Assembly (NCBI RefSeq): GCF_020177335.1
Contig: NZ_JAIVMG010000020.1
Coordinates: forward strand, 1 to 53,558
Direction: 5' to 3'
DNA length: 53,558 nucleotides
Origin: Stappia indica
Lineage (GTDB): Bacteria > Pseudomonadota > Alphaproteobacteria > Rhizobiales > Stappiaceae
The notes under the pieces: generated by a model
The model's input: the letters and a program-made list of their open reading frames with translations, nothing else
Told to the model about the DNA's origin: nothing
Database searches by the model: none
Shown here: positions 32,860-53,375 of the stretch, piece by piece
How the letters are laid out: each line of letters opens with the position of its first letter
Numbering within the stretch: the stretch's first letter is position 1
Made by a program: the position numbers and the translations under genes

Positions 32860-34781
<1,922 letters not shown>

Positions 34782-35234: not shown

Positions 35235-36461
35235 TCATGCCGCCGCCCGCGCCGGCGCACCGTCGTCGGACGGACGCTGCAATGCGTTGACGCAGGCCGC
35301 GAACCCCAGAAAAAGCGGCGAGACCCAGAACCCTGCTGAGATGTCCCCCGTGGCATCGGAGATCACCCCCGCCAGAAGCGGGCCGATCGTCTGGCCGAGT
35401 GCGAAACTGAGGGTCAGGAGAGAAATCGCCGCCGTCCAATAGGTCGGCGACAATTGACGCTGGGCGACAATGGTGATGGCCGTCGGTCCGGCGAGAAAGC
35501 TGCCGCCGAAGATGATCGCCGACACGAACATGGCCACCGGACCGGACCAGATCAGAACCGCGAGCGTCCCGGCCATCGCCGTCACGAACACGATGCTTGG
35601 ACCGAGCCCTCCCTTGAGCGTCCCCAGAACCCGCCCCCAAACCAGGGTGGACACCGCCGACACCAGACCAAGAACCATCCAGAACAGGATCATGCGCTCA
35701 TCGTTCGCGCCCTGGCTCCTGAGAAGGGCGATGACGAAGGTCATGTAGCCGACATAGCCCGCGCCGAAGAGGCCGTAGCCGAAGAAGGTCGGCGCAATCC
35801 GCCGGAACTCGCGGAGCTTGAGCAACGGGGTGCTGCCGCCCAGAGGTTCCTGAATACCGTGCACCGCCCAGGCGGCAATCGGCAGCCCCGCCAACCCGAG
35901 AACACCGAGCGCGATCCATCCGCCGGTCCACTGCGCCACTCCCCCGTTCGTGGCCATCGGCACGGCAATGCCCGCCAGCAGGATGCCGAGCCCCACACCG
36001 GCCACATAGATCCCCACCATCGTCCCTCTGCGCCGTGGGTTCGGCTCCCGGCAGATTGCCGCCGCCAGCGCCGCACCGAGGATGAAGGTATAGGCGGTGG
36101 TCACGCCGCCGAAGGTCCGCACCAGGAACAGCATGGTGAAGTCCGGGAAGACGCCCGTGGCCAACAACGCCAGCGCGCTGAGCAGGAAACCGGCGAGAAA
36201 GGCGCGTTTCGCGCCCCATCGGCTCGCGGCCCAGGGCGCGGTCACCGCGCCGGCGATGTATCCAAAGCCGTTCGCCGTATTCAGCGCCCCCGCCTCGGCA
36301 TAGCTCAACGCCAGATCGGCCTGCATCGCCGGAAGCAGCAGAGCATAGGAAAAACGGGACAGGCCAAGGGCGAGCGCGGCGCCGGTGGACAGCGCAACCG
36401 CGATCGCGAATTCGATCCCGGCCCCTGCCTTGACATCGTCGACTGCCCCGGTGGTATCCAT
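35235..36461 (-). CDS. MFS transporter, YbfB/YjiJ family
   Basis: A 408-residue major-facilitator protein with 12 predicted helices. The region SRFSYALLLPAMQADLALSYAEAG near residue 36 and the loop SRWGAKRAFLAG after helix 2 are typical of the YbfB/YjiJ group. It is divergent from a TetR-type regulator across a short gap packed with operator half-sites, a classic arrangement for a regulated exporter. Substrate unknown. Confidence 0.88.
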   Translation of the reverse strand: MDTTGAVDDVKAGAGIEFAIAVALSTGAALALGLSRFSYALLLPAMQADLALSYAEAGALNTANGFGYIAGAVTAPWAASRWGAKRAFLAGFLLSALALLATGVFPDFTMLFLVRTFGGVTTAYTFILGAALAAAICREPNPRRRGTMVGIYVAGVGLGILLAGIAVPMATNGGVAQWTGGWIALGVLGLAGLPIAAWAVHGIQEPLGGSTPLLKLREFRRIAPTFFGYGLFGAGYVGYMTFVIALLRSQGANDERMILFWMVLGLVSAVSTLVWGRVLGTLKGGLGPSIVFVTAMAGTLAVLIWSGPVAMFVSAIIFGGSFLAGPTAITIVAQRQLSPTYWTAAISLLTLSFALGQTIGPLLAGVISDATGDISAGFWVSPLFLGFAACVNALQRPSDDGAPARAAA

Positions 36462-36545
36462 CCTGCACCTCGGCGAGACCCGAAAATGGCCTCTGTTCAG
36501 TTGACATGAACGGCCTTCGAACCGAACCGGCGGGAAGCGACGACA

Positions 36546-36600
36546 TTGTTCAGCGGACCATTCTTGACTATAATGTCAAACATGACACGACTGTCAAGGA
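36546..36600 (+). promoter_or_regulatory. tetR promoter embedded in a periodic operator array
   Basis: TTGTTC (36546-36551) and a consensus TATAAT (36569-36574), 17 bases apart, form a good promoter for the TetR gene. Half-sites TGAC/TGTCA start at 36565, 36574, 36583 and 36592, exactly nine bases apart and in alternating orientation. They create three overlapping inverted repeats: TTGAC-N6-GTCAA, TGTCA-AACA-TGACA and TGACA-CGAC-TGTCA. They cover the -10 box and start point, so repression by the encoded TetR protein is likely. Confidence 0.65.
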
Positions 36601-36625
36601 TGCTGCCAGCGGAGATATGCAACGC

Positions 36626-37216
36626 ATGGTCGGAACAAGGCAATTCGATGAAGACGCGGTGATGCAGCGCGCGTTGAACGTGTTTCGCCAAAAGGGGCTT
36701 GCGGCCACGTCGATGATCGATCTGGCCGAGGCCACCGGGGTGCATCGCGGGTCGCTCTACAACGCCTATGGCGGCAAGGAAGCGATCTTCCTGTCGGCGT
36801 TCGAAACATACGCGGAAGACTATATGCGCGGGATCCGCTCCGCCCTGGACCAAACGGATGCGCGGCTGGCGCTCGCCGCCTTCGTGGAGACGGTGCTGGC
36901 GAGCATGATCGCCGGGTCGCCGGCGCGCGGCTGCCTTTCGACGCGAACCGCGACGGAAGTGGACGAGGCCGCCCCTGCCGTGAGGGAGCGCATCAAGCTC
37001 TGGCTGGACGACCTGCAGGAGGCCATCGAGACAAGCCTGGGGCAGCCCCACCTTGCGGACCAACTCACCCTCCCCCCTGAGGACGCGGCGCGGTTTCTGG
37101 TGACCTTCACACGCGGACTTGCCGTGATGGAGCGCGTCTATCACGACGAAGCGCAACTGCGCGAAATCTCTGCCTCACTCGTCCGCGTCCTGGTCCGGCA
37201 AGCCGGCAAGGACTGA
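36626..37216 (+). CDS. TetR-family transcriptional regulator
   Basis: A 196-residue regulator. The DNA-binding domain is at the N-terminus: VMQRALNVFRQKGLAATSMIDLAEATGVHRGSLYNAYGGKEAIF, with helix 3 in VHRGSLYNAYG. The ligand domain includes GCLSTRTATEVDEAAP, typical of the AcrR/YcdC-like group with TetR_C_16/PF16925-type ends. The frame opens at 36506, but that lies upstream of the apparent promoter. ATG 36626 has ggag 11 bases before it, while ATG 36617 is only two bases from it. It probably represses the divergent MFS gene and itself. Confidence 0.85.
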   Translation: MVGTRQFDEDAVMQRALNVFRQKGLAATSMIDLAEATGVHRGSLYNAYGGKEAIFLSAFETYAEDYMRGIRSALDQTDARLALAAFVETVLASMIAGSPARGCLSTRTATEVDEAAPAVRERIKLWLDDLQEAIETSLGQPHLADQLTLPPEDAARFLVTFTRGLAVMERVYHDEAQLREISASLVRVLVRQAGKD

Positions 37217-37578: not shown

Positions 37579-38499
37579 ATGGAACAGCAGAGAAACCGGG
37601 TTGAAACACTAGAAGCCAGCTACAAGAAAAACAATTTCAGCAACATCGCGCCCATCCTCGGCCACCTCAGAGCCTTCGAGGCAACAGCCCGCTTGGGAAG
37701 CATGACGCTGGCGGCCAAAGAGATCAACACGACGGTCAGTTCAATCAGCCGCCACAACAGACTGATAAGCGAATATCTCCATGTCGAACTGTTCGAGAAT
37801 ATAAACAGGAGCTTGAGACTGACCGAAGAGGGGTATTTCTTCTACAAATCCATCTCCTCCTCGCTCAGCGGCATTCTTGAGGCGACAGATTACATCACGC
37901 AGCACAACAAGAGCGGATCCATCAAGTTATATTCAAGCTCAATATTCATGTTTAGATGGATCATTCCGAGGATAAGAGCGTTCCTGAACAAGAACAAATT
38001 GGAGTCCGTAAGGCTATTCACCCACGACGCATCCGAAGAAAGATGTTCCCATATATTGTTCTCACTCGAGTCCACATCCGAGAACAGTGAGGTCTTTCTG
38101 CCCGATGAGATCCTGCCGGTTTCCAATCCGAACCGGCTGGCAGTCGGGTCGGACGCGGAAATTCCGCTCATCTGCACGCATCCGGACATGACGGATTGGG
38201 ACGACTGGTTTCAGCTCATTCCAAGCCTGCAGTCCCAGAAAACCTCGAAAATCTTCATTGCTGACGAGAATGCAGCGCTGGAAGCCGCGTGCCAGGGACT
38301 TGGGGTCGCGATCACCCGGCTTTCCGTGGCCCGTGAGGCCCTGGATACGCAGATCCTGTCCCCATTCGGCAATCGCCAGCAGAAAAAGCCAGCCTTTATC
38401 TGGTGCACCCGCCCACAAGGCCGAAGCCTGAACAGAGAGGAGAAACAAATTCTCTCCTTCCTGAAAGCCGAAGCCATTCTGTCCTTCAAGGACCCCTAG
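37579..38499 (+). CDS. LysR-family transcriptional regulator
   Basis: A 306-residue regulator. The helix-turn-helix is near residues 35-60 (FEATARLGSMTLAAKEINTTVSSISRHNRLIS), which keeps the LysR pattern though with His-Asn in place of the usual Gln-Ile. The effector domain starts near 110 (GSIKLYSSSIFMFRWIIPRI), similar in layout to GcvA-type proteins. Codon use and composition are more AT-rich than in the flanking genes (long Asn/Lys/Ser/Ile runs), suggesting recent transfer. It is convergent with the 69-residue gene and is the obvious regulator of the KamA/methyltransferase locus. Confidence 0.83.
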   Translation: MEQQRNRVETLEASYKKNNFSNIAPILGHLRAFEATARLGSMTLAAKEINTTVSSISRHNRLISEYLHVELFENINRSLRLTEEGYFFYKSISSSLSGILEATDYITQHNKSGSIKLYSSSIFMFRWIIPRIRAFLNKNKLESVRLFTHDASEERCSHILFSLESTSENSEVFLPDEILPVSNPNRLAVGSDAEIPLICTHPDMTDWDDWFQLIPSLQSQKTSKIFIADENAALEAACQGLGVAITRLSVAREALDTQILSPFGNRQQKKPAFIWCTRPQGRSLNREEKQILSFLKAEAILSFKDP

Positions 38500-38528
38500 G
38501 CCCCGCCCCGTGAGGAGCCGACGCCGCG

Positions 38529-38738
38529 CTATCGGGCTTCTTCAGCGTCTGACGCGAGGCTGTCTTCGCGCTCCCGGGAGCCGCCGCGGACGTCACCGCC
38601 GATTTCCGGAGTGCAGCCCAAATGCAGCGCCCGAAGATGCTCCTCGGTAAACGCATTCTCACCGACACTCACATCGCTCAGTCTTCGCCAGACTCTCAGG
38701 CATGGGGAAAAGGTCCTGTGAAGCAGAATTCGAAGCAT
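38529..38738 (-). CDS. Small uncharacterised protein (69 aa) in the aminomutase locus
   Basis: The frame is preceded by a near-ideal ribosome-binding site (gcaggaggatactcgc, aggagg eight bases before ATG 38738) and lies 43 bases downstream of the methyltransferase stop, so it is very likely translated from the same message. The protein begins with a basic segment (MLRILLHRTFSPCLRVWRRL), then AFTEEHLRALHLGC, a Gly-rich EIGGDVRGG and an acidic tail. Cysteines are at 13 and 42. I recognise no family. It could be a small accessory protein; a leader-type peptide cut after a GG is a more speculative reading. Confidence 0.6.
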   Translation of the reverse strand: MLRILLHRTFSPCLRVWRRLSDVSVGENAFTEEHLRALHLGCTPEIGGDVRGGSREREDSLASDAEEAR

Positions 38739-38781
38739 GCGAGTATCCTCCTGCTTCAGAAAAGCGGCGCCCCGGCTCGGC

Positions 38782-39786
38782 TCAGGCCTTGATCCCGACC
38801 GCCACCAAGGCGGTACGCGGAACCGTCGCGACGTAATCGTGCCCATCGCGCTCCACCGCTATCGGCCCCAAGATGCGCTCGGCGAGGGGGGCTAGTACCG
38901 GCTCGATCTCGCCCTCGTCCGCCGCGAGCTTGATCAGGTCGTAGCCCTTGTACAGATGCAGGATCGCATGTGTTCTCGCCTCCTCCGGGGAACCGCCGCG
39001 CAGTGTGAAGGGATCGGAAATCTCGAAAAAGCGCAGATCGCGGAACCCGGCAGCCGAGAACAGATCCAGGATTTCAGCGCGCGTGTAATGCGCATGCGGA
39101 TGGCCGGTGCGTGAATAGGGGTGGATGACCTCATCGAAGAAGCGGGCGATCCCACTACCGACCTCGAAGGCATGGAACACCAGACGGCCATTTGGCTTGA
39201 GCGTCCGCCAGGCTTCGCGGACCGCAGCTCCCCGCACGTCATTGGGAAGCAGCTGACTGCCGTAGGCGATCAGGACGCCATCGAGGACATTATCGCGAAA
39301 CAGGCTCCTGGCCGCGGATTGCCGCACATAGGGCAGATGCCTTGCCCGGCATTCGGACATCATATGGTTCGACAAGTCGGCGGTGAACACGGTCGGCGTG
39401 TCCGGCCCGAGCGTGGAGGCAAAATGGGCCACGGCCCCGCTGCCGCCCAGAACATCCAGAATCTTGTACTCCGGCCCTGGGATCTCATCGTAGTGCGGAG
39501 AGAAACACCTGAGCAGCGATGTCATGCCAACACTGCGATTGTCGGCGTTCTTTTGCACGCCGCTCCAGGCCGGCCCCCGGCCGCCACGGTCATTGCCTTC
39601 GAAGACCCATGATGCAGCATTCATTTCCGCGACATAGGGCAGGATCCTGTCATCGGACAGGTTTTCAAGATCCAGAAGATCGTACAGGTCGCGATGCTTT
39701 TCCGAAATCTCGTCGAGATACTCGGAGAACGAGCGATGATCGACATAGTCCTCAGTCCGGGTGGTGGTGACAGCCTCGTTCAGCAT
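38782..39786 (-). CDS. SAM-dependent methyltransferase
   Basis: A 334-residue class I methyltransferase. After a 100-residue N-terminal extension comes motif I, KILDVLGGSGAVAHF (about 108-122), then the acidic residue of strand 2 (FTADLSNHM), DGVLIAYGSQLLPN, and the motif-III-like LKPNGRLVFHAFE. The C-terminus ends in VPRTALVAVGIKA. ATG 39786 is preceded by aaggg ten bases upstream; a TTG at 39813 would add nine residues but has no such site. The methyl acceptor is unknown. Cupin (upstream) and the small protein (downstream) lie in the same orientation and are probably co-transcribed. Confidence 0.83.
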   Translation of the reverse strand: MLNEAVTTTRTEDYVDHRSFSEYLDEISEKHRDLYDLLDLENLSDDRILPYVAEMNAASWVFEGNDRGGRGPAWSGVQKNADNRSVGMTSLLRCFSPHYDEIPGPEYKILDVLGGSGAVAHFASTLGPDTPTVFTADLSNHMMSECRARHLPYVRQSAARSLFRDNVLDGVLIAYGSQLLPNDVRGAAVREAWRTLKPNGRLVFHAFEVGSGIARFFDEVIHPYSRTGHPHAHYTRAEILDLFSAAGFRDLRFFEISDPFTLRGGSPEEARTHAILHLYKGYDLIKLAADEGEIEPVLAPLAERILGPIAVERDGHDYVATVPRTALVAVGIKA

Positions 39787-39919
39787 CGCAGCAAGACCCT
39801 TGTTCCATTTCAAGAATTTGGCGCGAGCGCCGGCAGCTCCGCAGGAGCTTCCGACACCGCCGCCGGAGCGGGGATGCGACCACGATACAGCTCGTGGCCA
39901 CGGCCCGTTGCAGAGAGCC

Positions 39920-40300
39920 TCAAGCCGATTTGTCGTCGACGGTGGCCAGCGGCTCGCTCTTGTTGACCGCGAAGAAACAGAGAACCTTCAGCGTCTTCTC
40001 TCCGCGCACCTTCGCGAAGTGAACCGCATCGACCGGCACCGCATAGGAACCGCCGACCTTCACGCGCTGATCCGGGCGCCCCTCGACCGCGAGGTCGAAC
40101 TCCCCATCAAGAACGTAACCGGTCTCGATGCCGGGATGGGTATGCGGTGACGCATGCGTGCCGGCCGGCACCTCGATGATGCTGACATTGAGCATGAACT
40201 CGTCCGACAACGGCACCTCCTGCAGGAGCGTGCGCTTGATACCACCCTGCACATAGACGGGCTCGGTTGCCGGCAGATCATTCGATTGAGCAAGAGACAT
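39920..40300 (-). CDS. Cupin-domain protein
   Basis: A 126-residue single-domain cupin. Metal-site residues follow the germin pattern: His53, His55, Glu59 (HTHPGIETGYVLDGEF) and His94 (VDAVHFAKV). The site gggag precedes ATG 40300. It is the first gene of the minus-strand half of the aminomutase locus, divergent from the KamA-like gene. Small cupins of this type act as metal-dependent enzymes (dioxygenase, isomerase) or as ligand-binding proteins; which one applies cannot be said. Confidence 0.83.
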   Translation of the reverse strand: MSLAQSNDLPATEPVYVQGGIKRTLLQEVPLSDEFMLNVSIIEVPAGTHASPHTHPGIETGYVLDGEFDLAVEGRPDQRVKVGGSYAVPVDAVHFAKVRGEKTLKVLCFFAVNKSEPLATVDDKSA

Positions 40301-40520
40301 GCAAAATTCTCCCAAATAAAGGTCAGCGAACGTCAATCGGGCACAACCAAAAATGACATGCCGCATCAGTGCGGAGGTCGACGCCCGCCATGATGGTTCA
40401 CCACCATCCGGCAACCCTTGATTTCAAATTCTCGAACGGCATTCAAAATTATAGAAACGAAACCCTATAACCAGATTTTATCCATGTATTTCCTTATTAA
40501 TTTCAACGTCGGGTGCAGAC
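40301..40520. promoter_or_regulatory. Divergent AT-rich promoter region of the aminomutase locus
   Basis: The gap between the cupin and KamA-like genes turns AT-rich from about 40420. TATAG (40450-40454) and CTATA (40465-40469) form a dyad across ten bases, matching the LysR-type T-N11-A layout. Its right half, CCCTATAA, resembles AACCTATAC upstream of the LysR gene (37511-37519). Confidence 0.45.
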
Positions 40521-41930
40521 ATGTCTCTGACCATCAAGCCTGTGTCTGAAAAAGAAGAAAATAATATAAATAACAGAAATTTCGGAGATTTTGCAGCTCC
40601 GAAAGAAATGAGCCTTCACATTGCCAAGCCGGCGAGTCCCCGCTTCATGTCCTATGACAATCGGCGGATACATCTCATTCCCCAACTGGACTTACTGGAC
40701 GACCGCACGCGCAGCGGCCTGCTGCGCGCGGCGAAGATCTTCCCACTGAAGGTCAATTCCTACGTTCTGGAGAACCTGATCGATTGGAATGCCGCACCCG
40801 ACGACCCGATCTATCGGCTTGTTTTCCCGCATCAGGACATGCTCACCGAAGACGCGGACCACGCCTTGGCGGCGCTGGAAACGGGCGCGCTTTCCGCCGA
40901 AGACGCCGCTGCCCGCCTGGTCGAGATCCGGGACACAATGAACCCTCACCCCGCCGACCAGGCGAGCAACATTCCCATCCTCGACGGGATGCAGATCGAG
41001 GGCATTCAGCACAAGTATCGGGAGACGGTTCTCTACTTCCCGAAACAGGGACAAACTTGCCACGCCTATTGTGCCTTTTGTTTCAGGTGGCCGCAGTTCA
41101 TCGAAACAAGCGCGCCCAAATTCGAATCCAAGGACACTGCGCGCCTGCTGGCGTATCTGCGCGGCAATCCGCACGTCTCGGATCTCCTGCTGACCGGCGG
41201 AGATCCGATGGTCATGAACGCGCGGCGGCTCGCGGCCCTGCTCGATCCTCTTCTCGATCCGTCCCTTGCGCATGTGTCGACCATCCGCATCGGCAGCAAA
41301 TCGCTCACCTATTGGCCCTATCGCTTCCTGACCGATCCTGACGCGGACGCCCTGCTCGACCTGTTCAAGAGACTGGCCGACGGCGGCAAGCACATCGCCT
41401 TCATGGCCCATATCAACCATTGGCGGGAGATCGAGCCGGAACCGGTGCAAGCCGCGATTGCCAGGCTCAGGCAAGCCGGCGTCACCATCCGGTCCCAGGC
41501 ACCGCTGATCCGGCGGGTGAACGACAATGCAGACACCTGGCGCCGGCTCTGGAGCCGGCAGGTCGAGCTGGGCATTCAGCCGTATTACATGTTCGTGGAG
41601 CGCGACACCGGAGCCACTCACTATTTCGGCGTCACGCTTGCCGAAGCGCATCGCATCTACAAAGGGGCGATCTCTTCCGTCAGCGGGCTGGCCCGCACGG
41701 CCAGAGGGCCGGTGATGAGTACCAGCGCCGGCAAGGTGCAAATCCTCGGCCCGACCTCCTTGAACGGGCAGAAAGCCCTGGCACTGACGATGCTGCAGTC
41801 CCGAAATCCGGACACCGTCCACGACCCGTTCCTGGCCAAATATTCGGAAGAGGCGACCTGGATCGATCAACTGGAGCCGTTCGACCCCGTCGGCGCGTTC
41901 CCGTTCGGCCAGAAAAAGGGGGCAGCGTAA
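40521..41930 (+). CDS. KamA-family radical SAM aminomutase-like protein
   Basis: A 469-residue radical-SAM enzyme of the lysine 2,3-aminomutase family. The [4Fe-4S] cluster motif is Cys180, Cys184, Cys187 (CHAYCAFCFRW), followed by LLLTGGDPMVMNARRL. The C-terminus keeps the pattern IQPYYMFVERDTGATHYF and a Lys405 in STSAGKVQILG, the probable PLP lysine. Clostridial lysine aminomutase has VVDAPGGGGK there; its substrate-binding Asp is not evident, so lysine may not be the substrate. An N-terminal 35-residue Asn/Glu/Lys-rich, AT-rich stretch is unusual; a later ATG (40608) is possible. The reaction would shift an amino group from C2 to C3. It starts an operon with the flavoprotein one base downstream. 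Confidence 0.83.
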   Translation: MSLTIKPVSEKEENNINNRNFGDFAAPKEMSLHIAKPASPRFMSYDNRRIHLIPQLDLLDDRTRSGLLRAAKIFPLKVNSYVLENLIDWNAAPDDPIYRLVFPHQDMLTEDADHALAALETGALSAEDAAARLVEIRDTMNPHPADQASNIPILDGMQIEGIQHKYRETVLYFPKQGQTCHAYCAFCFRWPQFIETSAPKFESKDTARLLAYLRGNPHVSDLLLTGGDPMVMNARRLAALLDPLLDPSLAHVSTIRIGSKSLTYWPYRFLTDPDADALLDLFKRLADGGKHIAFMAHINHWREIEPEPVQAAIARLRQAGVTIRSQAPLIRRVNDNADTWRRLWSRQVELGIQPYYMFVERDTGATHYFGVTLAEAHRIYKGAISSVSGLARTARGPVMSTSAGKVQILGPTSLNGQKALALTMLQSRNPDTVHDPFLAKYSEEATWIDQLEPFDPVGAFPFGQKKGAA

Positions 41931-41931
41931 G

Positions 41932-43815
41932 ATGGACCAGGTCAACATCTGCCTCATTGGCGGCGGCCCGAGAGCCCTGGTGACGCTCAATGCCTTGCGC
42001 CGGCATATTCTCGAATTCGACAATCCCGACGTGCAGTTCGTCATCGCCATCGTCGATCCGAACACCCATGGCAGCGGCTGCCATGACCCGAACCAGCCCT
42101 ATCATCTGTACACCAACACCCTGGCGTCTCAGCTCACCGCGTTCTATCCCGCCCCGGCTGGTGAGGAGGCGACCAACTGGCTTACCGGCCCTTCCTTCAC
42201 CGAATGGGCGCGAATGACCGGCATCGAGAACATGTCCGGGCAGTTCGATCAGAGCCTCGACGGGACGCCACTCAAGCTGGTTTCCGAACTCGACTATCTG
42301 CCCCGCTCATTGCTCGGGCAGTATCTGGCCTGGGCCTTTCGCCGGCTCCGCGCATCGTTTCCAGACAGGGTCACCGTGCGGCCCTATCACGCGATGGCGC
42401 TCGAAGTGGAACAGGATGGCGATGCCCGGTTCACCGTGCAGCTCTCCAACGGTGGATCGCTGACGGCGGACTATCTGTTCGTCTCCACCGGTCACTCCAC
42501 CAACCAACCTTCGCCTTTTGCGCAAGTGTTGCAATCCTTCGCCGAGGCAGGCGCGAGCCATAATCCCGACCTTTTGTTCCTGCCGCAGTGCTACCCCACC
42601 ACCCGGTTGGAACGGATCTCGCCGGACGCCCGCGTGGCAATCCAGGGCCTCGGGCTGACCGCATGGGACGCCATCGCCGAGCTTACCGAAGGCCGGGGCG
42701 GCCGGTATGACAACCACGGCGGCAAGGTGGTGTACCGACCTTCGGGGTCAGAGCCATCGATCGCCCTGTTCTCGCGCAAAGGGTTGCCGTTCGCGGCGCG
42801 GGGGATCAACCAGAAAGGTCTGACCGGCCGTCACCAGGCCCGTTTCTTCACCCCTCAGGCCGTCGAGGCCATCCGCGCGGAGAAACTGGCACGAACGGGC
42901 AATCGCCAGCTCGACTTCGAAACCGAGATCCTGCCGCTCCTCTTGCGCGAAATGGCCTTTGCCTATCGGCAGACGCGGCTTGGACGGCCGATAGAGACAC
43001 GCGGCTTCGCCCCCACGGCCGAGGAAATGGCAGCGCTTCAGCGTGAGTTTGAACCGTTCGGCGAGCATGTGTTCGGCTCGCTGGATGAGTTCCGAAATGC
43101 CTTCCTCCACCGTGTGCGGGCTGATCTGGCGGAAGCGGAGAAAGGCAATCTCGGATCGCCGATCAAATCCGCGACCGACGTCATTCGCGATTGCCGGGCG
43201 GCGATTTGCGCCGCCGTGGAATATCGGGGTCTCACGCCAGACTCCGAACGCTGGTTCCGGCAGGAACTGGTGCCCACCATGAACCGGATCTCCTTTGGCC
43301 CGCCGCTGTTTCGGAATCACCAGCTCTTGGCCTTGTTTCACGCCGGCGTGGTCGATCTGGCCGCTGGCCCGGCCAACAAGGTCAAGCTCGACAAGACCCA
43401 CTGGCGCTATGTCATCGAGACGGACTTTGCCAGAACCCCCAGCCGCGTTGAAGCCGATGTGCTCATCATCGCCCGCCTCGATCCCTTCGTTCCGGAGGCC
43501 GACGCCAATCCTCTTACCGCCGCACTTCTGCAGAACGGGCTGGTGCGCCCGTTGCAAAACGGCAGCTTTCGCCCCGGCGGATATGATGTCACCCCGGACT
43601 TCCAGCCGGTCGGCCGCGACGGCAGCCCCACCCGCAACATCTGGATCATGGGCTACCCGACCGAAGGCGCCACGTTCTACACTCACGCAATCCCCCGGGC
43701 CGGTCTCGCCTCGCCGCAATACGCGGCGGCCAACACCTGTGTGTCGCAGATGTTCGCCGACCTGGCCGCGTACCGTCCGGCCAGACCTGCGCCCCTTGTG
43801 CAGATGACGACATGA
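41932..43815 (+). CDS. FAD/NAD(P)-binding protein (PF13454-type)
   Basis: A 627-residue flavoprotein. The N-terminal Rossmann motif is ICLIGGGPRALVTLNAL (about 6-22). The segment HDPNQPYHLYTNTLASQLTAFYP is typical of the FAD_NAD_binding (PF13454) family, in which such a His/Pro-rich stretch follows strand 2. A second dinucleotide-type strand appears in RVAIQGLGLTAWDAIAEL (about 226-243), and the C-terminus has RNIWIMGYPTEGATFYTHAIPR. It would oxidise or hydroxylate the pathway intermediate, perhaps at nitrogen as in distantly related N-monooxygenases; this is a guess. Coupled to the lactonase gene by ATGA. Confidence 0.75.
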   Translation: MDQVNICLIGGGPRALVTLNALRRHILEFDNPDVQFVIAIVDPNTHGSGCHDPNQPYHLYTNTLASQLTAFYPAPAGEEATNWLTGPSFTEWARMTGIENMSGQFDQSLDGTPLKLVSELDYLPRSLLGQYLAWAFRRLRASFPDRVTVRPYHAMALEVEQDGDARFTVQLSNGGSLTADYLFVSTGHSTNQPSPFAQVLQSFAEAGASHNPDLLFLPQCYPTTRLERISPDARVAIQGLGLTAWDAIAELTEGRGGRYDNHGGKVVYRPSGSEPSIALFSRKGLPFAARGINQKGLTGRHQARFFTPQAVEAIRAEKLARTGNRQLDFETEILPLLLREMAFAYRQTRLGRPIETRGFAPTAEEMAALQREFEPFGEHVFGSLDEFRNAFLHRVRADLAEAEKGNLGSPIKSATDVIRDCRAAICAAVEYRGLTPDSERWFRQELVPTMNRISFGPPLFRNHQLLALFHAGVVDLAAGPANKVKLDKTHWRYVIETDFARTPSRVEADVLIIARLDPFVPEADANPLTAALLQNGLVRPLQNGSFRPGGYDVTPDFQPVGRDGSPTRNIWIMGYPTEGATFYTHAIPRAGLASPQYAAANTCVSQMFADLAAYRPARPAPLVQMTT

Positions 43816-44618
43816 CCTACGATCTCTTTGCCCTGCGCTATGGACGCCAGCCGGACCTCGCGATCGAGGAAACCGGCGTCTTCCCACAGGACTGGACTCC
43901 GGAAGAGGAGCGCCAGCCGTTCTCCTACTACTTCTGGCTTGCAAGGTCGGCTTCGTCCTGCGTGCTGGTGGATTGCGGCTTTTCACCGGAACAGGGGCAC
44001 GCGCGGGGAAAGGAAACGATCCTGCCGGTGGGCGACCTGCTCGATGAGATCGGCGTCTCTCCGGATCAGATCGAGGACATCGTCCTCAGCCATCTCCACT
44101 ACGATCACGTCGGCAACCTGGGCCTCTTTCCTCGGGCACGGCTGCATGTTCACGCGCGCGAGTGGGCGTGGGCAACCGGCCTGGCGATGGCCGACGCGGC
44201 GGCCAGCCGGTATTATGACCGCAGCGACATGACGGTGCTTCTCGACCGGCTTTTCTCAGGCAAGCTGCGGCTGATCGCGCAAGATCACCTTGAGTTCAAG
44301 GGATTAGGTCTCACTCATGTTGGCGGACACAGTCCCGGCCAGATGATCATCGAGGTTCCTACCTCTACCGGACCTGTCGTGCTGGCGAGCGACGCCAGCC
44401 ACCTTGATCGCAACTGGCAGCAGCGCAATCCGTTTCCGATCATTCACGAGCAGGCGGCCTCTCTCGATGCCTGCGCCCTTCTCGCCCGCAAGGCGGAGGA
44501 CGGCGCCAGGATCATCGCCGGGCACGAACCATCGGTCTTGCAGAAACATCAGTCGGCAGGCCGCAGCGGCAACGTGGTCGCTCTGCACCGGCCCATCGGA
44601 AATGCGGGCATGATTTGA
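43812..44618 (+). CDS. Metallo-beta-lactamase-fold hydrolase, AHL-lactonase family
   Basis: A 268-residue metallo-hydrolase. The metal-binding motif HLHYDH is at 94-99, a further His is in THVGGHSPGQ, Asp in LASDASH and a final His in IIAGHEP. This is the pattern of AiiA-like N-acyl-homoserine lactonases. Here, coupled to a flavoprotein and a radical-SAM aminomutase, it may open a lactone or hydrolyse an ester of the pathway product rather than act on quorum signals. The stop lies 27 bases from the convergent YaiI-type gene. Confidence 0.83.
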   Translation: MTYDLFALRYGRQPDLAIEETGVFPQDWTPEEERQPFSYYFWLARSASSCVLVDCGFSPEQGHARGKETILPVGDLLDEIGVSPDQIEDIVLSHLHYDHVGNLGLFPRARLHVHAREWAWATGLAMADAAASRYYDRSDMTVLLDRLFSGKLRLIAQDHLEFKGLGLTHVGGHSPGQMIIEVPTSTGPVVLASDASHLDRNWQQRNPFPIIHEQAASLDACALLARKAEDGARIIAGHEPSVLQKHQSAGRSGNVVALHRPIGNAGMI

Positions 44619-45122: not shown

Positions 45123-45384
45123 GTCTCGAAATTCCCCTGTTGGCCGCAGCGCTTCGGACGACGAACGGCATCCGGTCTTATACATGGCGAACTGCGCGTT
45201 TGAAAAAACCGATTTGCCGCGATTGGTTGGCTGGGCGTCGTCGCAAGCTTGCCGGCAACGGCCAAGCCCACGGACTACGGCATCGTCCCCGCATCGCCGC
45301 TCCAGCCGTCCCCTACGGGCCTGAACCGCCTCCACGACCATCCACAGCCCCAAAGGCAACGGTCGACAGAAGCGCGCCAAGAAA

Positions 45385-45394
45385 TTATCTATAA
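45385..45394. promoter_or_regulatory. BioR box before bioR
   Basis: TTATCTATAA is the recognition sequence of the alphaproteobacterial biotin repressor BioR. It lies three bases before the bioR ATG and overlaps a TATAAT (45390-45395), indicating autoregulation. Confidence 0.85.
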
Positions 45395-45397
45395 TTC

Positions 45398-46066
45398 ATG
45401 ACATCTCGCACCGAAGAAACCCAGGCCGCACGCATTGCGCGCATTCTTGGCGAGCGGATCATTTCCGGCTCCCTCCCCCCTGGCGCCCACCTCAGGCAGG
45501 ACCACATCGCCACCGAATTCGGCGCAAGCCACGTCCCCGTGCGCGAAGCCTTCCGGCAGCTTGAAGCCCGAGGTCTGGCGGAATGCCTACCCCGGCGCGG
45601 CGTCCGGGTCACCGAATTCGACGTGGCCGAACTGCGGGAGGTCGCGGAAATGCGCGCCAGCCTGGAAGCGCTGGCCCTGCGCCACGCCGCCCCCAATATG
45701 ACGCGCGCAATCCTGCAGGAAGCTGAAGAGGTTACACGCCGCGGCGATCGCGCCGACACCGTGCAGGACTGGGAAGACGCCAACCGCCGCTTTCACCGGC
45801 TGATCCTTACCCCCTGCCACATGCCGCGCCTGCTGAAGACCCTTGACGACCTTCACGCGGCAAGCGCCCGCTTCCTGTTCGCCGCCTGGCAACAGGAATG
45901 GGAAACACGCACCGACCACGACCATCGCGCCATCCTCCAGGCCCTGCGACGAGGACAGACCGACCTGGCCTGCGCAACGCTCGCCCGCCACGTGAGCTGG
46001 CTCGGGAAACGCAAGCCCGCAAAAAGAAATGCTGAAGAAAGAGAGACTTATGAAATTTTCGGATAA
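45398..46066 (+). CDS. bioR: GntR-family biotin regulator BioR
   Basis: A 222-residue regulator of the FadR-like GntR group. The winged helix is at the N-terminus (SLPPGAHLRQDHIATEFGASHVPVREAFRQLEARGL, about 25-60) and an all-helical FCD ligand domain follows. Identity as BioR rests on two exact BioR boxes flanking it and on the downstream bioY-bioB operon; BioR represses biotin synthesis and uptake genes in alphaproteobacteria. The ATG lies right after the box, so the message may be leaderless or start upstream of the annotated -10. Confidence 0.88.
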   Translation: MTSRTEETQAARIARILGERIISGSLPPGAHLRQDHIATEFGASHVPVREAFRQLEARGLAECLPRRGVRVTEFDVAELREVAEMRASLEALALRHAAPNMTRAILQEAEEVTRRGDRADTVQDWEDANRRFHRLILTPCHMPRLLKTLDDLHAASARFLFAAWQQEWETRTDHDHRAILQALRRGQTDLACATLARHVSWLGKRKPAKRNAEERETYEIFG

Positions 46067-46076
46067 TTATCTATAA
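46067..46076. promoter_or_regulatory. BioR box before bioY
   Basis: A second TTATCTATAA begins one base after the bioR stop and overlaps a TATAAT (46072-46077). A transcript starting near 46084 would give bioY a 60-nt leader. This is the expected control point of the bioYB operon. Confidence 0.88.
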
Positions 46077-46146
46077 TCTGCCTTGATGGTCGGATTTCCG
46101 TTTCGCAATCATGGAGGGAAGCTCTCTATCAGCGAAAGGAAACGCC

Positions 46147-46707
46147 ATGCCTTCACTGGCTCACGGTGCCGCCGTCACCGCCACCCCGCTCTGGCGCGGA
46201 CTGACACTCACGCTCTGCGGCGCAGCCCTGATCACGCTGGGCGCCAAGATCCAGATTCCCTTCTGGCCCGTACCCATGACTCTGCACACATTGGCCGTTT
46301 TTCTCACAGCAGCCGCCTTGGGCCCACGCCTCGGCCTTGCCGCCATGACCGCCTATCTCGGTGCCGGCGCCCTGGGCCTGCCGGTCTTCTCCGGCACGCC
46401 GGAGCGCGGGATCGGGCTGGCCTACATGGTTGGCCCGACCGGCGGCTACCTGCTCGGATACTGGCTTGCCGCCAGTCTGATCGGCGCCCTTGCCCACAGG
46501 CGCAAGTGGGTCGTCCAGACATTGGCCATGCTGGCGGGCCTTGCCGTTGTCTATGCCGCCGGTCTTGCCTGGCTGGCCAACTTCGTTCCCGCCCGCGATC
46601 TTCTTGCTGCCGGTTTCACCCCCTTCGTTCTCGGCGACCTCGTCAAGATCGCGCTGGCCTGCCTGCTGCTTTCGGGCGCCCGCCGGTGGACGGGAGCCGC
46701 GCAATGA
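46147..46707 (+). CDS. bioY: Biotin transporter BioY
   Basis: A 186-residue membrane S-component for biotin uptake, with six predicted helices. Family motifs are [18 protein letters not shown] (about 37-54) and [16 protein letters not shown] (about 97-112). The ATG at 46147 follows aaggaaacgcc; an earlier in-frame ATG (46111) lacks a similar site. No bioM/bioN energising genes are seen nearby, so it may work alone or with a shared ECF module. Overlaps bioB by ATGA. Confidence 0.92.
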
Positions 46708-47693
46708 CAGAAGCCGTCATCCGGACCGACTGGACCCTTGAGGAGGCACGGGCGATCCACGCCCTGCCGCTTCCCACCCTGATGGCCCGCGCTCAGGCTG
46801 TCCACCGCGCTCATTTCGATCCAACCGTGATCGAAACGGCCAGTCTGCTCAGCATCAAGACCGGCGGCTGCCCGGAGGATTGCGGCTATTGCTCGCAATC
46901 CGCTCATCACGCGACCGGCGTCAAGGCAACCAAACTGCTGGACGCTGACACCGTCCTTGCCGCCGCAAGACGCGCAAAGGCGGCGGGCGCCCAGCGCTTT
47001 TGCATGGGCGCTGCCTGGCGCAGCCCCAAGAACCGGGACATGGACGCGCTCTGCGACATGGTGAAGGGCGTCGCCGACCTGGGGCTGGAGACATGCATGA
47101 CGCTGGGGATGCTGACCCCGGACCAGGTTGCGCGGCTCAAGGCCGCCGGCCTCGACTTCTACAATCACAACATCGACACGTCTCCAGCCTATTATTCCGA
47201 AATCGCCACCACCCGGACCATGGAAGATCGGCTCGATACGCTGGAGCATGTGCGCGCGGAAGGCATCAAGGTCTGCTGCGGCGGTATCCTCGGCATGGGG
47301 GAAGCGGAGGACGACCGCATCGCCCTGCTGGTGACGCTGGCCACCCTGCCCACCCACCCCCAGAGCGTGCCGGTGAACCTGTGGACCGAGATCGAAGGCG
47401 TCCCCGTCCAGTCGCGAGCCCGTCCCGTGGAGCCCTTTTCGCTGGTCCGGGCCATCGCCCTCGCCCGCATCCTGATGCCCGCTTCCGTGGTGCGCCTCTC
47501 AGCCGGACGGCTGGAAATGGGCGACGAATTGCAGGCCCTCTGCTTTCTTGCCGGAGCCAATTCGATTTTCGTCGGCGACCAGCTTCTGACTACCGACAAC
47601 CCGGCTCCGGCACGCGACGCCGACCTGCTCGCCCGGCTGGGACTGCGGATAGCCCCTGCCGTGCCGCATGCCCCACCCATCGCCGCGGAGTAG
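46704..47693 (+). CDS. bioB: Biotin synthase
   Basis: A 329-residue radical-SAM enzyme that inserts sulfur into dethiobiotin. The cluster motif is [11 protein letters not shown] with Cys56, Cys60 and Cys63; also visible are [21 protein letters not shown] and GMGEAEDDR, all standard for BioB. The other biotin genes (bioF, bioD, bioA) are not in the window. Translationally coupled to bioY and under the BioR box at 46067. The stop is 38 bases from the convergent dnaE2 stop. Confidence 0.95.
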
Positions 47694-47731: not shown

Positions 47732-50700
47732 TCAGTGGAAGTCACGACTCGGGAAGAGCCTCTTGGCCTGTTCGCGCGGGTGGCGGGCGGTTGGGGGATG
47801 CCGTCGCGGGCGGGGGGCCTCATCGGCCTGCGGCTGGGTGATCCCGATGGCATCGTTGAGGGGATGGCCCAGATCCGCAAGGCGGTGGGACAGGTCCTCG
47901 ATATGATCGGCGATGAGGTGCACGACGATACCCTCACGTTCGAGCCGTCCGGTGACCCGCAAGAGGCGGCCTCCCATGACGGCGCGGCGAAAACGTTCAT
48001 AGACCTTCGGCCAGACGACGATATTGGCAACCCCGGTTTCGTCCTCAAGCGTCAGGAAGATGACGCCGGACGCCGTTCCGGGGCGCTGGCGGGTAATGAC
48101 CAGCCCGCAAACGCTGGTGCGCCTGAAGGGCGCCTCAATCAACTGGCCATGGGGCGTCAGGCCCGGAATCGAAGGACGCAGCAGCTCCATCGGATGCTTG
48201 CGCAGCGTCAGCCGCATCGCAACATAATCCTCGACCACCTCCTCGCCGAGATGCATGGGCGGCAGGCACATCTCCGGCTCCCGGATGCCTTCGCCATCAA
48301 GGGGATCGGAGAAGAGCGGCAGGGGTTTCGGTGCGCGGATGGCACGCACTTGCCAAAGCGCATCACGGCGGGTGAGGCCCATTCCGATAAAGGCATCCGC
48401 CTCTGCGAGCCGTTCCAGAACGGCTGGAAGGATGCCCGCCCTGAGCCAGACGCTCTCAGGGTCGGGATACCCGTTGCCGCGCGCCGCCACGATCCAGTCT
48501 GCGTTCTCCTCGCGGAAACCCTTGATCTGGCGCAAGCCAAGACGCAGGGCCCAGGTTCCATCTGCCCGGCGTTCAAGCGTGTTGTCCCAGGCGCTGCTGT
48601 TCACGCAAATGGGGCGCACCTCCACTCCGTGATCGCGCACATCGCGCACGATCTGCGCGGGCGCATAAAAGCCCATCGGCTGGGAGTTCAAAAGCGCGCA
48701 GGCGAAGATCGCCGGGTAGTGGCACTTGAGCCATGAGGACACATAGGTGAGCATGGCGAACGCCGCTGCGTGGCTTTCGGGAAAGCCGTAATCGGCAAAG
48801 CCCTCGATCTGGGAGAAACAGGCCTCCGCCGTTTCGCGCGAATAGCCGTTTTTCATCATCCCGTTCACGAAGCGCGTGTGGTGTCGCTCGATCGTTCCCA
48901 TGCGGCGGAAGGAGGCGAGCGAACGGCGGAGCTGGTCGGCCTCCTCGGGAGAATAGCCCGCTCCGACCACGGCGATCTGCATCGCCTGCTCCTGGAACAG
49001 CGGCACCCCAAGCGTCTTGTGGGTGACTTCCGCAAGTGCGGGGCCGAAAGGTTCCGGTTTTTCCAGCCCCTGCCGTCGCCGGATATAGGGTTTGACCATG
49101 CCGCCCTGGATGGGACCGGGGCGAACGATGGCGACCTCGATAACAAGATCGTAGAAGGTCCTCGGCTTCATCCGGGGGAGGAAGTTCATCTGCGCCCGGC
49201 TTTCGACCTGGAACACGCCCACGGCATCGGCGCGGCACAGCATGTCATATGTCGGCTTGTCCTCCTGCGGGACTGTGGCCAGCGTGAGCTGTTTCTTCTC
49301 ATGCTGCGCCAGGAGCTCGAAGCTTTTGCGCAAACAGGTGAGCATTCCCAGCGACAGGATATCGACCTTCAGAATGCCGAGCGTATCGATGTCGTCCTTG
49401 TCCCATTCGATGACCGTGCGCCCTTCCATCGCCGCGTTCTCGATGGGGCAGAGTTCATCGAGCCGGCCGCGGGTGATGACGAACCCGCCCACATGCTGGC
49501 TGAGGTGACGGGGAAAGCCGATGATCTCGCTGATAAGACGCAAGGTCTGGGCAAGGCGCCGGTTTTGCAGATCGAGGCCCAGTTGGCGCGCATGATCCAG
49601 ATCGGCGCCCTTGTTCGAAAGCCCCCAGATCTGACCCGAGAGGTTCGCGGTCACGTCTTGACTGAGGCCCATCACCTTCCCCACCTCGCGGATCGCGGCA
49701 CGGGTCCGGAAATGGATCACGGTGGCGCACAGCCCCGCGCGATCGCGGCCGTATTTCTCATAGATCCATTGAATCACTTCCTCGCGGCGCTCATGCTCGA
49801 AATCCACGTCGATATCGGGCGGCTCCTTGCGATGACGGGAGATGAAGCGCTCGACAACCATACCGATCATATCCGGTGATACGCCGGTGATCTCAAGCAG
49901 GTAGCACAGGATGGAATTGGCGGCCGACCCACGCCCCTGGCAAAGAATGCCTCGGGATCGCGCCTCCTGCACGATGTCGCGCACGGTCAGGAAATAAGCT
50001 GCGTAGCCAAGCTCCTCGACGAGGCAAAGCTCCTTCTCCAGCAACGTGTGAACCCGCTCCGGGGCGCCATTGGGATACCGGCGCTCGACCCCAGCGCGCG
50101 CAAGCCGGTCGAGCCGGGCCTGAGGTGTTTCACCTTGCGATACCTCATCGGGATATTCGTAGCTGAGCTCGGAGAGATCGAAACTGCAACGCACGGCGAT
50201 CTCAAGCGTGCGGCGCAAGGCTGCCGGGTGGTGGCGATAAAGCCGCGCCATGTCGGAGGCGCCCTTGAGGCGGCGCTCCGCATTGGGCAGCGCGCGGGTG
50301 CCGATCCGATCGATGGTGACATTCTCCCGCATGCATGTCAGCACATCTGCGAGTTGCCGCCGCCCTCCATGATGCATGAGCACATCCCCGACCGCCACCA
50401 TGGGCGCGGATGTTCGCAATGCGAGGGCCGCACAGACGTTGAACCATGGCGGGTCCGAACCGTCATACCGGGGCGCCGCACCGAGGAAGACATTCCCGGG
50501 AAAGCGCCGCGACAGCGTTTGTATGGGCGCCTGCGGGCAGAAGGGCCCGCGCGGCGGCAGCGCGATGAGGATCATCCCCTGGCAGCCCTCCTCCAGATCG
50601 GCCAGATAGAGGTGACAGTCCCCTTTCCCCGTGCGTTGCTTGCCAACGGTGAGAAGGCGGGCGAGACGGTGATAGGCCGGGCGATCGGTCGGCAGGGCGA

Positions 50701-51088
50701 CCCAGTCGATCGGGCAATCGCGCAGCACGAGGCGGGCGCCGACGATGAGCTTCGGAAGCTTGACGATTGCCGGGCGGGGCAAATCGAGCCTTGGATTGCT
50801 CCTTTGGCGCGAGCTGTGGTCGACCTGATCCTGGGAGCGGATGTGCAGGATCGCATTCACCTCTTCACGCAGCGTTTTCAAGGCGGAGTAAGCTCTGACC
50901 ACGCCTGCCAGCGTGTTGCGGTCGGTAATGGCAATCGCCTCAAGCCCGAGCTCCGCGGCGCGTAGCACCAATTCCTCCGGATGGGACGCACCGGTGAGAA
51001 AGGTGAAGTTCGAGGTCACGCACAGCTCGGCGTAGCAGCGCGGACCGATTGGCAAACCTTCAGCATCCGGACAAAAATGCAGGGTCAT
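47732..51088 (-). CDS. dnaE2: Error-prone DNA polymerase DnaE2
   Basis: An 1118-residue C-family polymerase that works with ImuA and ImuB in damage-induced mutagenesis. The N-terminal PHP domain begins AELCVTSNFTFLTGASHPEELV. The catalytic palm has PPDIDVDFEHERREEVIQW (about 418-436), and the C-terminal OB domain is seen near TSVCGLVITRQRPGTASG. Length and motifs are typical of DnaE2 rather than the replicative DnaE. Last gene of the imuA-imuB-dnaE2 operon; its ATG overlaps the imuB stop and is preceded by gggagaatttcc. Confidence 0.94.
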   Translation of the reverse strand: MTLHFCPDAEGLPIGPRCYAELCVTSNFTFLTGASHPEELVLRAAELGLEAIAITDRNTLAGVVRAYSALKTLREEVNAILHIRSQDQVDHSSRQRSNPRLDLPRPAIVKLPKLIVGARLVLRDCPIDWVALPTDRPAYHRLARLLTVGKQRTGKGDCHLYLADLEEGCQGMILIALPPRGPFCPQAPIQTLSRRFPGNVFLGAAPRYDGSDPPWFNVCAALALRTSAPMVAVGDVLMHHGGRRQLADVLTCMRENVTIDRIGTRALPNAERRLKGASDMARLYRHHPAALRRTLEIAVRCSFDLSELSYEYPDEVSQGETPQARLDRLARAGVERRYPNGAPERVHTLLEKELCLVEELGYAAYFLTVRDIVQEARSRGILCQGRGSAANSILCYLLEITGVSPDMIGMVVERFISRHRKEPPDIDVDFEHERREEVIQWIYEKYGRDRAGLCATVIHFRTRAAIREVGKVMGLSQDVTANLSGQIWGLSNKGADLDHARQLGLDLQNRRLAQTLRLISEIIGFPRHLSQHVGGFVITRGRLDELCPIENAAMEGRTVIEWDKDDIDTLGILKVDILSLGMLTCLRKSFELLAQHEKKQLTLATVPQEDKPTYDMLCRADAVGVFQVESRAQMNFLPRMKPRTFYDLVIEVAIVRPGPIQGGMVKPYIRRRQGLEKPEPFGPALAEVTHKTLGVPLFQEQAMQIAVVGAGYSPEEADQLRRSLASFRRMGTIERHHTRFVNGMMKNGYSRETAEACFSQIEGFADYGFPESHAAAFAMLTYVSSWLKCHYPAIFACALLNSQPMGFYAPAQIVRDVRDHGVEVRPICVNSSAWDNTLERRADGTWALRLGLRQIKGFREENADWIVAARGNGYPDPESVWLRAGILPAVLERLAEADAFIGMGLTRRDALWQVRAIRAPKPLPLFSDPLDGEGIREPEMCLPPMHLGEEVVEDYVAMRLTLRKHPMELLRPSIPGLTPHGQLIEAPFRRTSVCGLVITRQRPGTASGVIFLTLEDETGVANIVVWPKVYERFRRAVMGGRLLRVTGRLEREGIVVHLIADHIEDLSHRLADLGHPLNDAIGITQPQADEAPRPRRHPPTARHPREQAKRLFPSRDFH

Positions 51089-53071: not shown

Positions 53072-53198
53072 GCGCCTAGAATGCCAGCGAAGGATGCGCT
53101 TTTCAAACCCATGCGGAGCGCCAATGTGCGAAGATGCCCTCTGGAGAGCAGAACAAACATGCCGGGAGTCCCAGATCCAAAGACGGAGCACATCTCCG

Positions 53199-53375
53199 CT
53201 AACGGCGCAGCCCAATCGCCTCAATCAATGGACCGACAACAAGATCGGCGCCTTCGACGGTTAAGTGATCACTATTCCAGTACAGCGCAATCCCATCGCG
53301 GAAGATGGCACAGGTTTCAGTATTGCATAGCAACACCGTGGGATCGAAGAACCGAACCGCAGGCGCACGAGCGAG
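53199..53375 (-). pseudogene. 3' remnant of an SGNH-type acyltransferase gene
   Basis: Reading leftward from 53375, the minus strand encodes about 58 residues without a start codon, ending at TAG (53199-53201). The translation includes FFDPTVLLCNTETC and LYWNSDHLTVEGADLV, the C-terminal Asp-x-x-His block of the SGNH domain fused to acyltransferase-3 (OafA-like) proteins. The upstream part is missing; an in-frame stop stands at 53376-53378 and IS-like sequence begins at once. The gene was most likely cut by insertion of the adjacent IS3-type element. Confidence 0.7.

Follow-up and report, generated by a model that had tools for sequence, protein, structure and literature searches.

The window analysed here is a stretch of 53,558 nucleotides of DNA, on contig C20 of the 4.66-Mb Stappia indica genome, and the subject of this analysis is a cassette of six genes within it that includes a KamA-family radical S-adenosylmethionine (SAM) enzyme and a flavin N-monooxygenase. 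The cassette comprises two divergent arms and a LysR-family regulator. The plus-strand arm begins with the KamA-like gene (40521-41930, 469 amino acids), continues with a flavin N-monooxygenase of the L-aspartate N-hydroxylase (FzmM/CreE) family (41932-43815, 627 amino acids; PF13454) and ends with a metallo-beta-lactamase-fold hydrolase of the acyl homoserine lactone (AHL) lactonase type (43812-44618; PF00753, E 3e-18). The first gene of the minus-strand arm encodes a small single-domain cupin (39920-40300, 126 amino acids from the likely ATG), which is followed by a class I SAM-dependent methyltransferase (38782-39813; PF13649/PF08241). The LysR gene (37579-38499, plus strand; PF00126, E 3.7e-13) is convergent with this methyltransferase arm. 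The coordinates leave an intergenic region (40301-40520) between the divergent cupin and KamA-like genes, which is likely regulatory.

Support for the individual genes was obtained by counting substitutions at codon positions 1/2/3 relative to the corresponding locus of Stappia taiwanensis CCM 7757 (L005). The counts were 13/2/62 for the LysR gene, 21/11/51 for the methyltransferase, 1/0/17 for the cupin (counted from 40300), 18/7/59 for the KamA-like gene, 24/13/98 for the flavoprotein and 12/11/45 for the hydrolase, and all six genes were free of internal gaps, with gaps found only at the ends of the compared stretches. The bias toward third positions and the lack of internal gaps together indicate purifying selection on all six genes between the two Stappia species. 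The intergenic region 40301-40520 carried 23 substitutions and no gaps in the same comparison. An earlier note on this DNA, made from the sequence alone, had described seven genes, and six of these are borne out by family assignments and purifying selection. The seventh, a small protein encoded by an open reading frame (ORF) at 38529-38846 on the minus strand, was rejected: single-base indels break its frame relative to S. taiwanensis, its substitutions (22/16/25) show no coding pattern, and Pfam and NCBIfam searches matched no family to it; the ORF is probably non-coding. The upstream part of the listed cupin ORF (40301-40414) likewise showed no coding signal (3/4/2), for which reason 40300 is a likelier start for the cupin than 40414. 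The methyltransferase start is listed as TTG, and a later in-frame ATG is possible.

The tight coupling that had been proposed for the KamA arm was found, in that the KamA-like and flavoprotein genes are separated by one base and the flavoprotein and hydrolase genes overlap by 4 bases. The suggestion that parts of the locus are AT-richer than their surroundings also held. In 1-kb steps, GC content was 0.566 at 37-38 kb, 0.557 at 40-41 kb and 0.602-0.606 at 38-40 kb, versus 0.609-0.697 outside the locus, except for the step at 20-21 kb, which was also low at 0.553. Scans for promoters (3 sites versus 2.0 expected from shuffles) and terminators (3 sites versus 7.1 expected) were uninformative, and no tRNA was found in the window. 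Gene calls in unannotated GC-rich records, here and below, were taken from ORF lists or from a simple GC-position script.

The KamA-like protein was matched to lysine 2,3-aminomutase (LAM; 2a5h) with an E value of 4.5e-19 pairwise and 5.9e-28 by profile, with the match starting approximately 53 residues later in the Stappia protein (residue 158 versus 105). It shares with the LAM/KamA family the radical SAM cysteines (CHAYCAFC at residue 180, a CxxxCxxC motif), the conserved CFR and the lysine column for pyridoxal 5'-phosphate (PLP), in which it has K405. A loss of the PLP lysine was considered and rejected, given that the alignment places K405 in that column. Unlike the family's curated members, the protein scored under every NCBIfam cut-off, with 109.3 bits for TIGR03820 (AblA, lysine 2,3-aminomutase; cut-off 525.4), 139 bits for TIGR00238 (the general KamA family; cut-off 199.2) and 91.2 bits for TIGR04368 (glutamate 2,3-aminomutase; cut-off 650). 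Five subfamily relatives that were tested also fell under all of the NCBIfam cut-offs, that of TIGR00238 included.

An alignment was built of 35 distinct proteins, consisting of 29 members of the subfamily (the window's enzyme included), five shorter KamA-type proteins and one fragment. The shorter proteins, taken from loci L039-L043, served as a contrast and were called KamA-type without a family search of their own. The resulting tree split the 29-member subfamily from these five proteins with 100/100 support; forks within the subfamily were partly unresolved, and some branches were long. The radical SAM cysteines were kept in all 34 full-length proteins, and the PLP lysine was present in 28 of the 29 subfamily members and in all five shorter proteins. 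The column of LAM Asp293 held Arg in 28 of the 29 subfamily members and Asp in 5/5 shorter proteins, while the column of LAM Asp330 held Val, Ser or Ile throughout the subfamily (29/29) and Asp again in all five shorter proteins. The single exception for both the Arg and the PLP lysine was L019, the most distant member of the subfamily. The window's enzyme has R361 and V398 in these two columns and so lacks the pair of Asp residues which, in LAM, we take to bind the side-chain amine of lysine; the roles of LAM residues D293, D330, K337 and R134 and of their counterparts in glutamate aminomutase are likewise presumed here. With both lysine-reading Asp residues changed, lysine should not be the favoured substrate in this subfamily, and Arg in the Asp293 column would suit an acidic side chain. 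Judged from its sequence, the enzyme is something other than a plain lysine 2,3-aminomutase, and the plain assignment, which the earlier note had named as an outcome that would speak against its proposal, was rejected on the cut-offs and on the two changed Asp columns.

The likeness to glutamate 2,3-aminomutase would be one of function, as suggested by Arg361 and by the context of one relative. This relative, from Streptomyces NBC_00334, lies inside a macrolactam-type type I polyketide synthase (PKS) cluster that also encodes a proline iminopeptidase, two AMP-binding proteins, a phosphopantetheine-binding protein, an acyltransferase and a PLP enzyme. In Amycolatopsis AA4, a PLP enzyme 50% identical to the one from Streptomyces NBC_00334 also adjoins a KamA member. 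A comparable setting is that of incednine, for which one paper describes IdnL4 (radical SAM, a putative glutamate 2,3-aminomutase) and IdnL3 (PLP decarboxylase) in a route from L-Glu through beta-Glu to 3-aminobutyrate (PMC11284099). The subfamily relative thus sits in the same kind of macrolactam-type PKS setting beside a PLP enzyme, whereas the Stappia locus has neither a PKS nor such a PLP enzyme, and IdnL4 is likened to the subfamily by context rather than by sequence. Other members were found beside lysine/ornithine N-hydroxylase genes and genes for proteins like methionyl-tRNA synthetase (MetRS), in Burkholderia arboris (L020 8998-15794) and in Rhodococcus (L026 9004-15798), contexts which show that the KamA subfamily recurs in nitrogen-oxidising clusters. 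The Rhodococcus member also adjoins an annotated cupin gene, whose product is not BLAST-similar to the Stappia cupin.

The only PDB sequence match of the flavoprotein (E up to 1) was 8cp2, with an E value of 1.6e-61 over residues 5-600. This structure is of the L-aspartate N-hydroxylase from Streptomyces sp. V2, which, according to its description, is a class B flavoenzyme that converts the alpha-amino acid aspartate to nitrosuccinate in three rounds, after which nitrosuccinate decarboxylates to 3-nitropropionate; the same source presents the characterised N-hydroxylases of the family as biosynthetic (PMC10404684). Ten sequences were aligned, and the residues N62, R266, R409 and R412 (8cp2 numbering) were invariant in all of them, placing the Stappia protein within the family. 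Three of the five residues of the aspartate entry chamber (R13, R276 and R577) were kept in the Stappia enzymes. The substrate contacts N413 and R416 of 8cp2 are replaced in the flavoprotein by A423 and C426. At position 413, Ala was confined to the two Stappia sequences, with Asn in that of Streptomyces Mg1 and Asp in the other seven; Cys at position 416 was likewise confined to the Stappia pair. In the same paper, hydroxylation was lost in the N413E mutant, and Table 2 gives a KM for aspartate of >1 mM for N413A (PMC10404684). Since both of these aspartate contacts are replaced, plain aspartate is a poor candidate substrate, and the flavoprotein is probably an N-oxygenase for an acidic amine other than aspartate.

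The Stappia enzyme therefore resembles the L-aspartate N-hydroxylase/nitrosuccinate synthases (FzmM, CreE; 8cp2/8cp5) in its near-full-length homology and in the kept residues listed above, and differs from them in carrying Ala for N413 and Cys for R416 and in having an aminomutase gene adjacent instead of a lyase gene. Known biosynthetic clusters of aspartate N-hydroxylases have a nitrosuccinate lyase gene adjacent, and none was found among the genes of the locus. In Streptomyces Mg1, the flavoprotein homologue is followed by a gene annotated pcaB, which we take to be the nitrosuccinate lyase gene. Elsewhere, a homologue lies beside SbnA and SbnB on a Deefgea piscis plasmid (L047 3457-7296), a context that suggests N-oxygenation of 2,3-diaminopropionate, and another lies beside PhyH and AMP-binding genes in B. 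stagnalis. Neighbours as varied as these suggest that the flavoprotein family serves several amine substrates.

The hydrolase carries the complete motif set of the AHL-lactonase type: HLHYDH (94), GHSPG (172), ASDA (192) and GHEP (237). Following HLHYDH, the residues H173, D194 and H238 are all in place, and these three are presumably metal ligands. Its best PDB match was 8x78 (named a glyoxylase, E 1.2e-15), followed by AHL lactonases from E 2.4e-11. The protein thus shares metal-site motifs and fold family with AHL lactonases such as AiiA, AttM and GcL; unlike them, it scored under all NCBIfam lactonase cut-offs (the best being AttM, with 61.7 bits against a cut-off of 390) and is encoded in a biosynthetic-looking operon. 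Two relatives of the hydrolase were opened, on Rhodococcus and Variovorax plasmids, and both lie among genes annotated for catabolism. The cupin was assigned to PF07883 (E 6.5e-13, obtained for the longer ORF 39920-40414) and contains an HxHxxxE motif; its relatives in the plasmid collection were weak only, in 14 records. For the LysR regulator, the best NCBIfam similarity was to GcvA, at 125.5 bits with a cut-off of 288.

The methyltransferase has a glycine-rich motif, DVLGGSG, at residue 120, and its relatives are rare, with matches in 11 of 72,556 plasmid records, seven of them with good coverage. They occur on Tistrella, Cereibacter and Streptomyces plasmids, and asparagine synthase/synthetase genes were nearby in all three loci opened. 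The Tistrella relative is near an asparagine synthase-type gene and a LysR gene, and that on plasmid pDE of Cereibacter sphaeroides 2.4.1 (L071 8833-16390) is accompanied by radical SAM, homocitrate synthase-like, PLP and asparagine synthase-type proteins. On the Streptomyces NBC_00829 plasmid (L072 6828-21091), the relative is part of a nonribosomal peptide synthetase cluster that also encodes methylaspartate mutase, a glutamate synthase-related protein and asparagine synthetase A. These neighbours hint at acidic amino acid chemistry.

The distribution of the locus was examined in several genome sets. Among 87 genomes of the family, the KamA-like gene was found in two, both Stappia species and the only carriers found, and the flavoprotein was found in the same two and, as a partial 31% match, in one more. 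The 28 other KamA-subfamily loci (L005-L027 and L050-L054; flanks are short on one side in two of these, downstream in L006 and upstream in L013) were searched with the window proteins by tblastn, and 27 were without flavoprotein, hydrolase, methyltransferase and cupin, the exception being S. taiwanensis. The complete set was found only in S. taiwanensis among 15 genome-contig loci, and in none of the eight KamA plasmid loci opened (132 plasmid records had a match). In 385 alphaproteobacterial genomes, the flavoprotein occurred in four and a KamA-type protein (E<=1e-30) in 11, with both together only in the window's own genome. In 398 phylum-sampled genomes, partly overlapping the 385, the methyltransferase occurred in one (the own genome) and the flavoprotein (E<=1e-40) in three, the own genome included. 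Given that the genes occur apart elsewhere, the locus brings enzymes of known types together in a combination that is both new and rare. The gene set is a narrow combination within Stappia, not a widespread conserved cluster. Independent scatter in other genomes had been named beforehand as a finding that would count against a coherent locus, and it was seen in the other KamA loci, but the two Stappia species have kept all six genes side by side under selection.

The flanks of the locus were also sought in sister Stappia genomes, and none of the five genomes opened for this comparison has the KamA gene. The right-hand flank (45363-47646, GntR-to-BioB, with GntR named by Pfam and BioY and BioB by sequence appearance) was present without the locus in 3/3 stretches opened, and the left-hand flank (approximately 35260-37208, MFS-TetR) in 2/2. 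Intact flanks without the locus in congeners, combined with the dips in GC content at 37-38 and 40-41 kb, fit an acquisition of the cassette before the two carriers split, in agreement with the transferred cassette that the earlier note had expected.

Taken together, these observations point tentatively to a cassette for producing an N-oxygenated beta-amino acid from an acidic amino acid, likely glutamate, the product being possibly methylated and then hydrolysed; we give this sequence-based reading somewhat less than an even chance. In such a pathway, the KamA-like enzyme, with SAM, a 4Fe-4S cluster and PLP, would move the amino group, most likely converting L-glutamate to beta-glutamate. The flavoprotein, with NADPH and O2, would then oxidise the amino group, giving a hydroxylamine and perhaps, after further oxidation, a nitroso/oxime or nitro group; the enzyme type at this step is well supported, while the substrate is one that we infer. 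At a guess, the methyltransferase might cap a carboxyl or N-OH group, and the metal cupin might rearrange or dehydrate an intermediate. The hydrolase, to go by its active-site motifs, would open a lactone-like ring or an ester, and the LysR protein would control the two divergent arms. An N-hydroxy-beta-amino acid could close on itself to form an isoxazolidin-5-one, and this ring would be a candidate substrate for the lactonase-type hydrolase to open. In addition, because the nitrogen would be shifted before oxidation, a beta-nitro diacid should escape the spontaneous CO2 loss shown by nitrosuccinate. Among the literature matches listed (15 of 23), two call isoxazolidin-5-ones masked beta-amino acids, and none gives a biological route to an isoxazolidin-5-one. 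A small molecule derived from a beta-amino acid, as the earlier note had proposed, accordingly remains the best reading of the locus, with its oxidation sharpened to N-oxygenation and with one of its seven genes removed.

Several observations weigh against this pathway. The KamA-like enzyme and the flavoprotein were joined in no examined locus outside Stappia, so that their action on the same molecule is without comparative support. The glutamate 2,3-aminomutase model scored lowest of six aminomutase-type models, and a gapped pairwise alignment puts E360, not R361, opposite Asp293, whereas the ungapped profile alignment, which is preferred here, sets Asp293 of 2a5h against R361. The lysine/ornithine N-hydroxylase and MetRS-like genes around the KamA relatives of B. 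arboris and Rhodococcus could point to other substrates, and some members, such as Marinobacterium L007 and the alphaproteobacterial L050-L054, were without an obvious biosynthetic partner when ORF lists were inspected by eye. The comparison with incednine assigns IdnL4 to the KamA subfamily by context, and the source paper states that no activity of IdnL4 was seen in vitro (PMC11284099). Finally, how many times the nitrogen is oxidised, and in what order the last steps run, is guesswork without support.

Other explanations of the locus were weighed with the same evidence. The aminomutase may act on lysine, arginine or a neutral amino acid and the product be N-oxygenated in the same manner, which we consider unlikely. 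Of the 16 records with an annotation among the relatives H1-H19, 13 are labelled 'lysine 2,3-aminomutase', the lysine and general KamA models outscore the glutamate model, and the B. arboris and Rhodococcus relatives, which occur alongside lysine/ornithine N-hydroxylases, agree with such substrates; however, both lysine-reading Asp columns are changed, and the three Asp-contact arginines kept in the flavoprotein suit an acidic substrate. The two enzymes may also work on separate molecules, with the flavoprotein N-oxygenating an alpha-amino acid directly, as its characterised relative does, and the KamA-like enzyme supplying something else. The separation of the two families in the other loci examined is consistent with this, but their genes are one base apart and are kept together in S. 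taiwanensis, and the replacement of N413 and R416 makes plain aspartate a poor candidate; we rate this possibility as low. The poorest account of the locus is a chance gathering of unrelated genes on an acquired segment: the set was found in two species only, as would be expected, yet purifying selection acts on all six genes, and three of them show translational coupling or come close to it, which makes a chance gathering very improbable.

We see a slim chance that the locus belongs to an N-N bond pathway, in which the cupin would couple a second amine to an amino acid that has been N-hydroxylated, perhaps with enzymes encoded elsewhere in the genome. A separate hydrazine-type cluster is present on contig C8 of the same genome (approximately 13.4-19.4 kb; L088 3443-9397), where lysine N-hydroxylase-like, DAO-like, cupin-MetRS-like (683 amino acids) and AMP-binding-like proteins are encoded in a row, named by sequence appearance except for a PF09334 (MetRS-type) match. 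The cupin-MetRS mechanism of hydrazine synthetases is treated in PMC11705231. The Stappia locus is like hydrazine synthetase clusters (cupin, MetRS-like, lysine N-hydroxylase) in having a cupin and an N-hydroxylase, and some KamA relatives, in Rhodococcus and B. arboris, adjoin MetRS-like and N-hydroxylase genes. It is unlike them in that no MetRS-like or lysine N-hydroxylase gene is among the locus genes, its N-hydroxylase being of PF13454 and not PF13434, and in the lack of BLAST similarity between its cupin and that of Rhodococcus. The prospects of a degradation or detoxification operon are equally slim. Here the LysR protein, cupin and hydrolase would break down or quench an external molecule, for example an AHL, with the KamA-like enzyme and flavoprotein in the route. 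The intact lactonase-type motif set and the catabolic surroundings of the hydrolase relatives on the Rhodococcus and Variovorax plasmids would fit, but the hydrolase is far under every NCBIfam AHL-lactonase cut-off, and the characterised N-hydroxylases of the flavoprotein family are biosynthetic.

Each enzyme of the cassette is of a known family, and the combination is new as far as found. No literature on a KamA enzyme together with an aspartate-type N-hydroxylase was found, which is weak evidence of absence given that subscription papers were mostly outside reach, and the genomes searched did not show it outside Stappia; to this extent, the earlier statement that no described pathway has this gene set stands. 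To our knowledge, the only related bacterial route is that to 3-nitropropionate, formed from nitrosuccinate by CO2 loss. If the proposed pathway is true, the locus would provide a way of making beta-N-oxygenated amino acids with two enzymes. A fuller scheme of rearrangement followed by N-oxygenation can be drawn, in which a charge-reversed aminomutase yields beta-glutamate, a re-tooled N-oxygenase converts it to a stable beta-N-oxy or beta-nitro diacid, that product or the isoxazolidin-5-one acts as a signal or inhibitor, and a dedicated hydrolase opens the ring. This scheme is speculative, and we doubt that it holds in full; if it did, many proteins named 'lysine 2,3-aminomutase' would be acidic amino acid 2,3-aminomutases. 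The sequence rule behind it, that Arg in place of LAM Asp293 suggests an acidic amino acid substrate, would apply to proteins across several phyla that, where they carry an annotation, are mostly called 'lysine 2,3-aminomutase'. The rule reaches beyond the Stappia locus and merits testing should the Stappia pathway differ.

Among the neighbouring genes, a YbfB-type MFS gene (35235-36461; PF06779) was considered as a member of the locus and left out as unsupported, given that two sister Stappia genomes have the MFS-TetR pair but lack the locus. Genes of other kinds near the locus, all named by sequence appearance, include a glutamate dehydrogenase-like gene (32860-34245, minus strand), a BioY-BioB-like pair (46111-47693) and ORFs resembling an ImuA-ImuB-DnaE2 mutagenesis cassette (47732-53224, minus strand). 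In favour of a link between such an MFS gene and the flavoprotein, a homologue of the latter is directly followed by an MFS transporter annotated as YbfB/YjiJ-type on a Vibrio crassostreae plasmid (L046 8956-11953), and a homologue in genome G735 (L090 6749-10148) is followed by an MFS transporter that is similar by sequence appearance.

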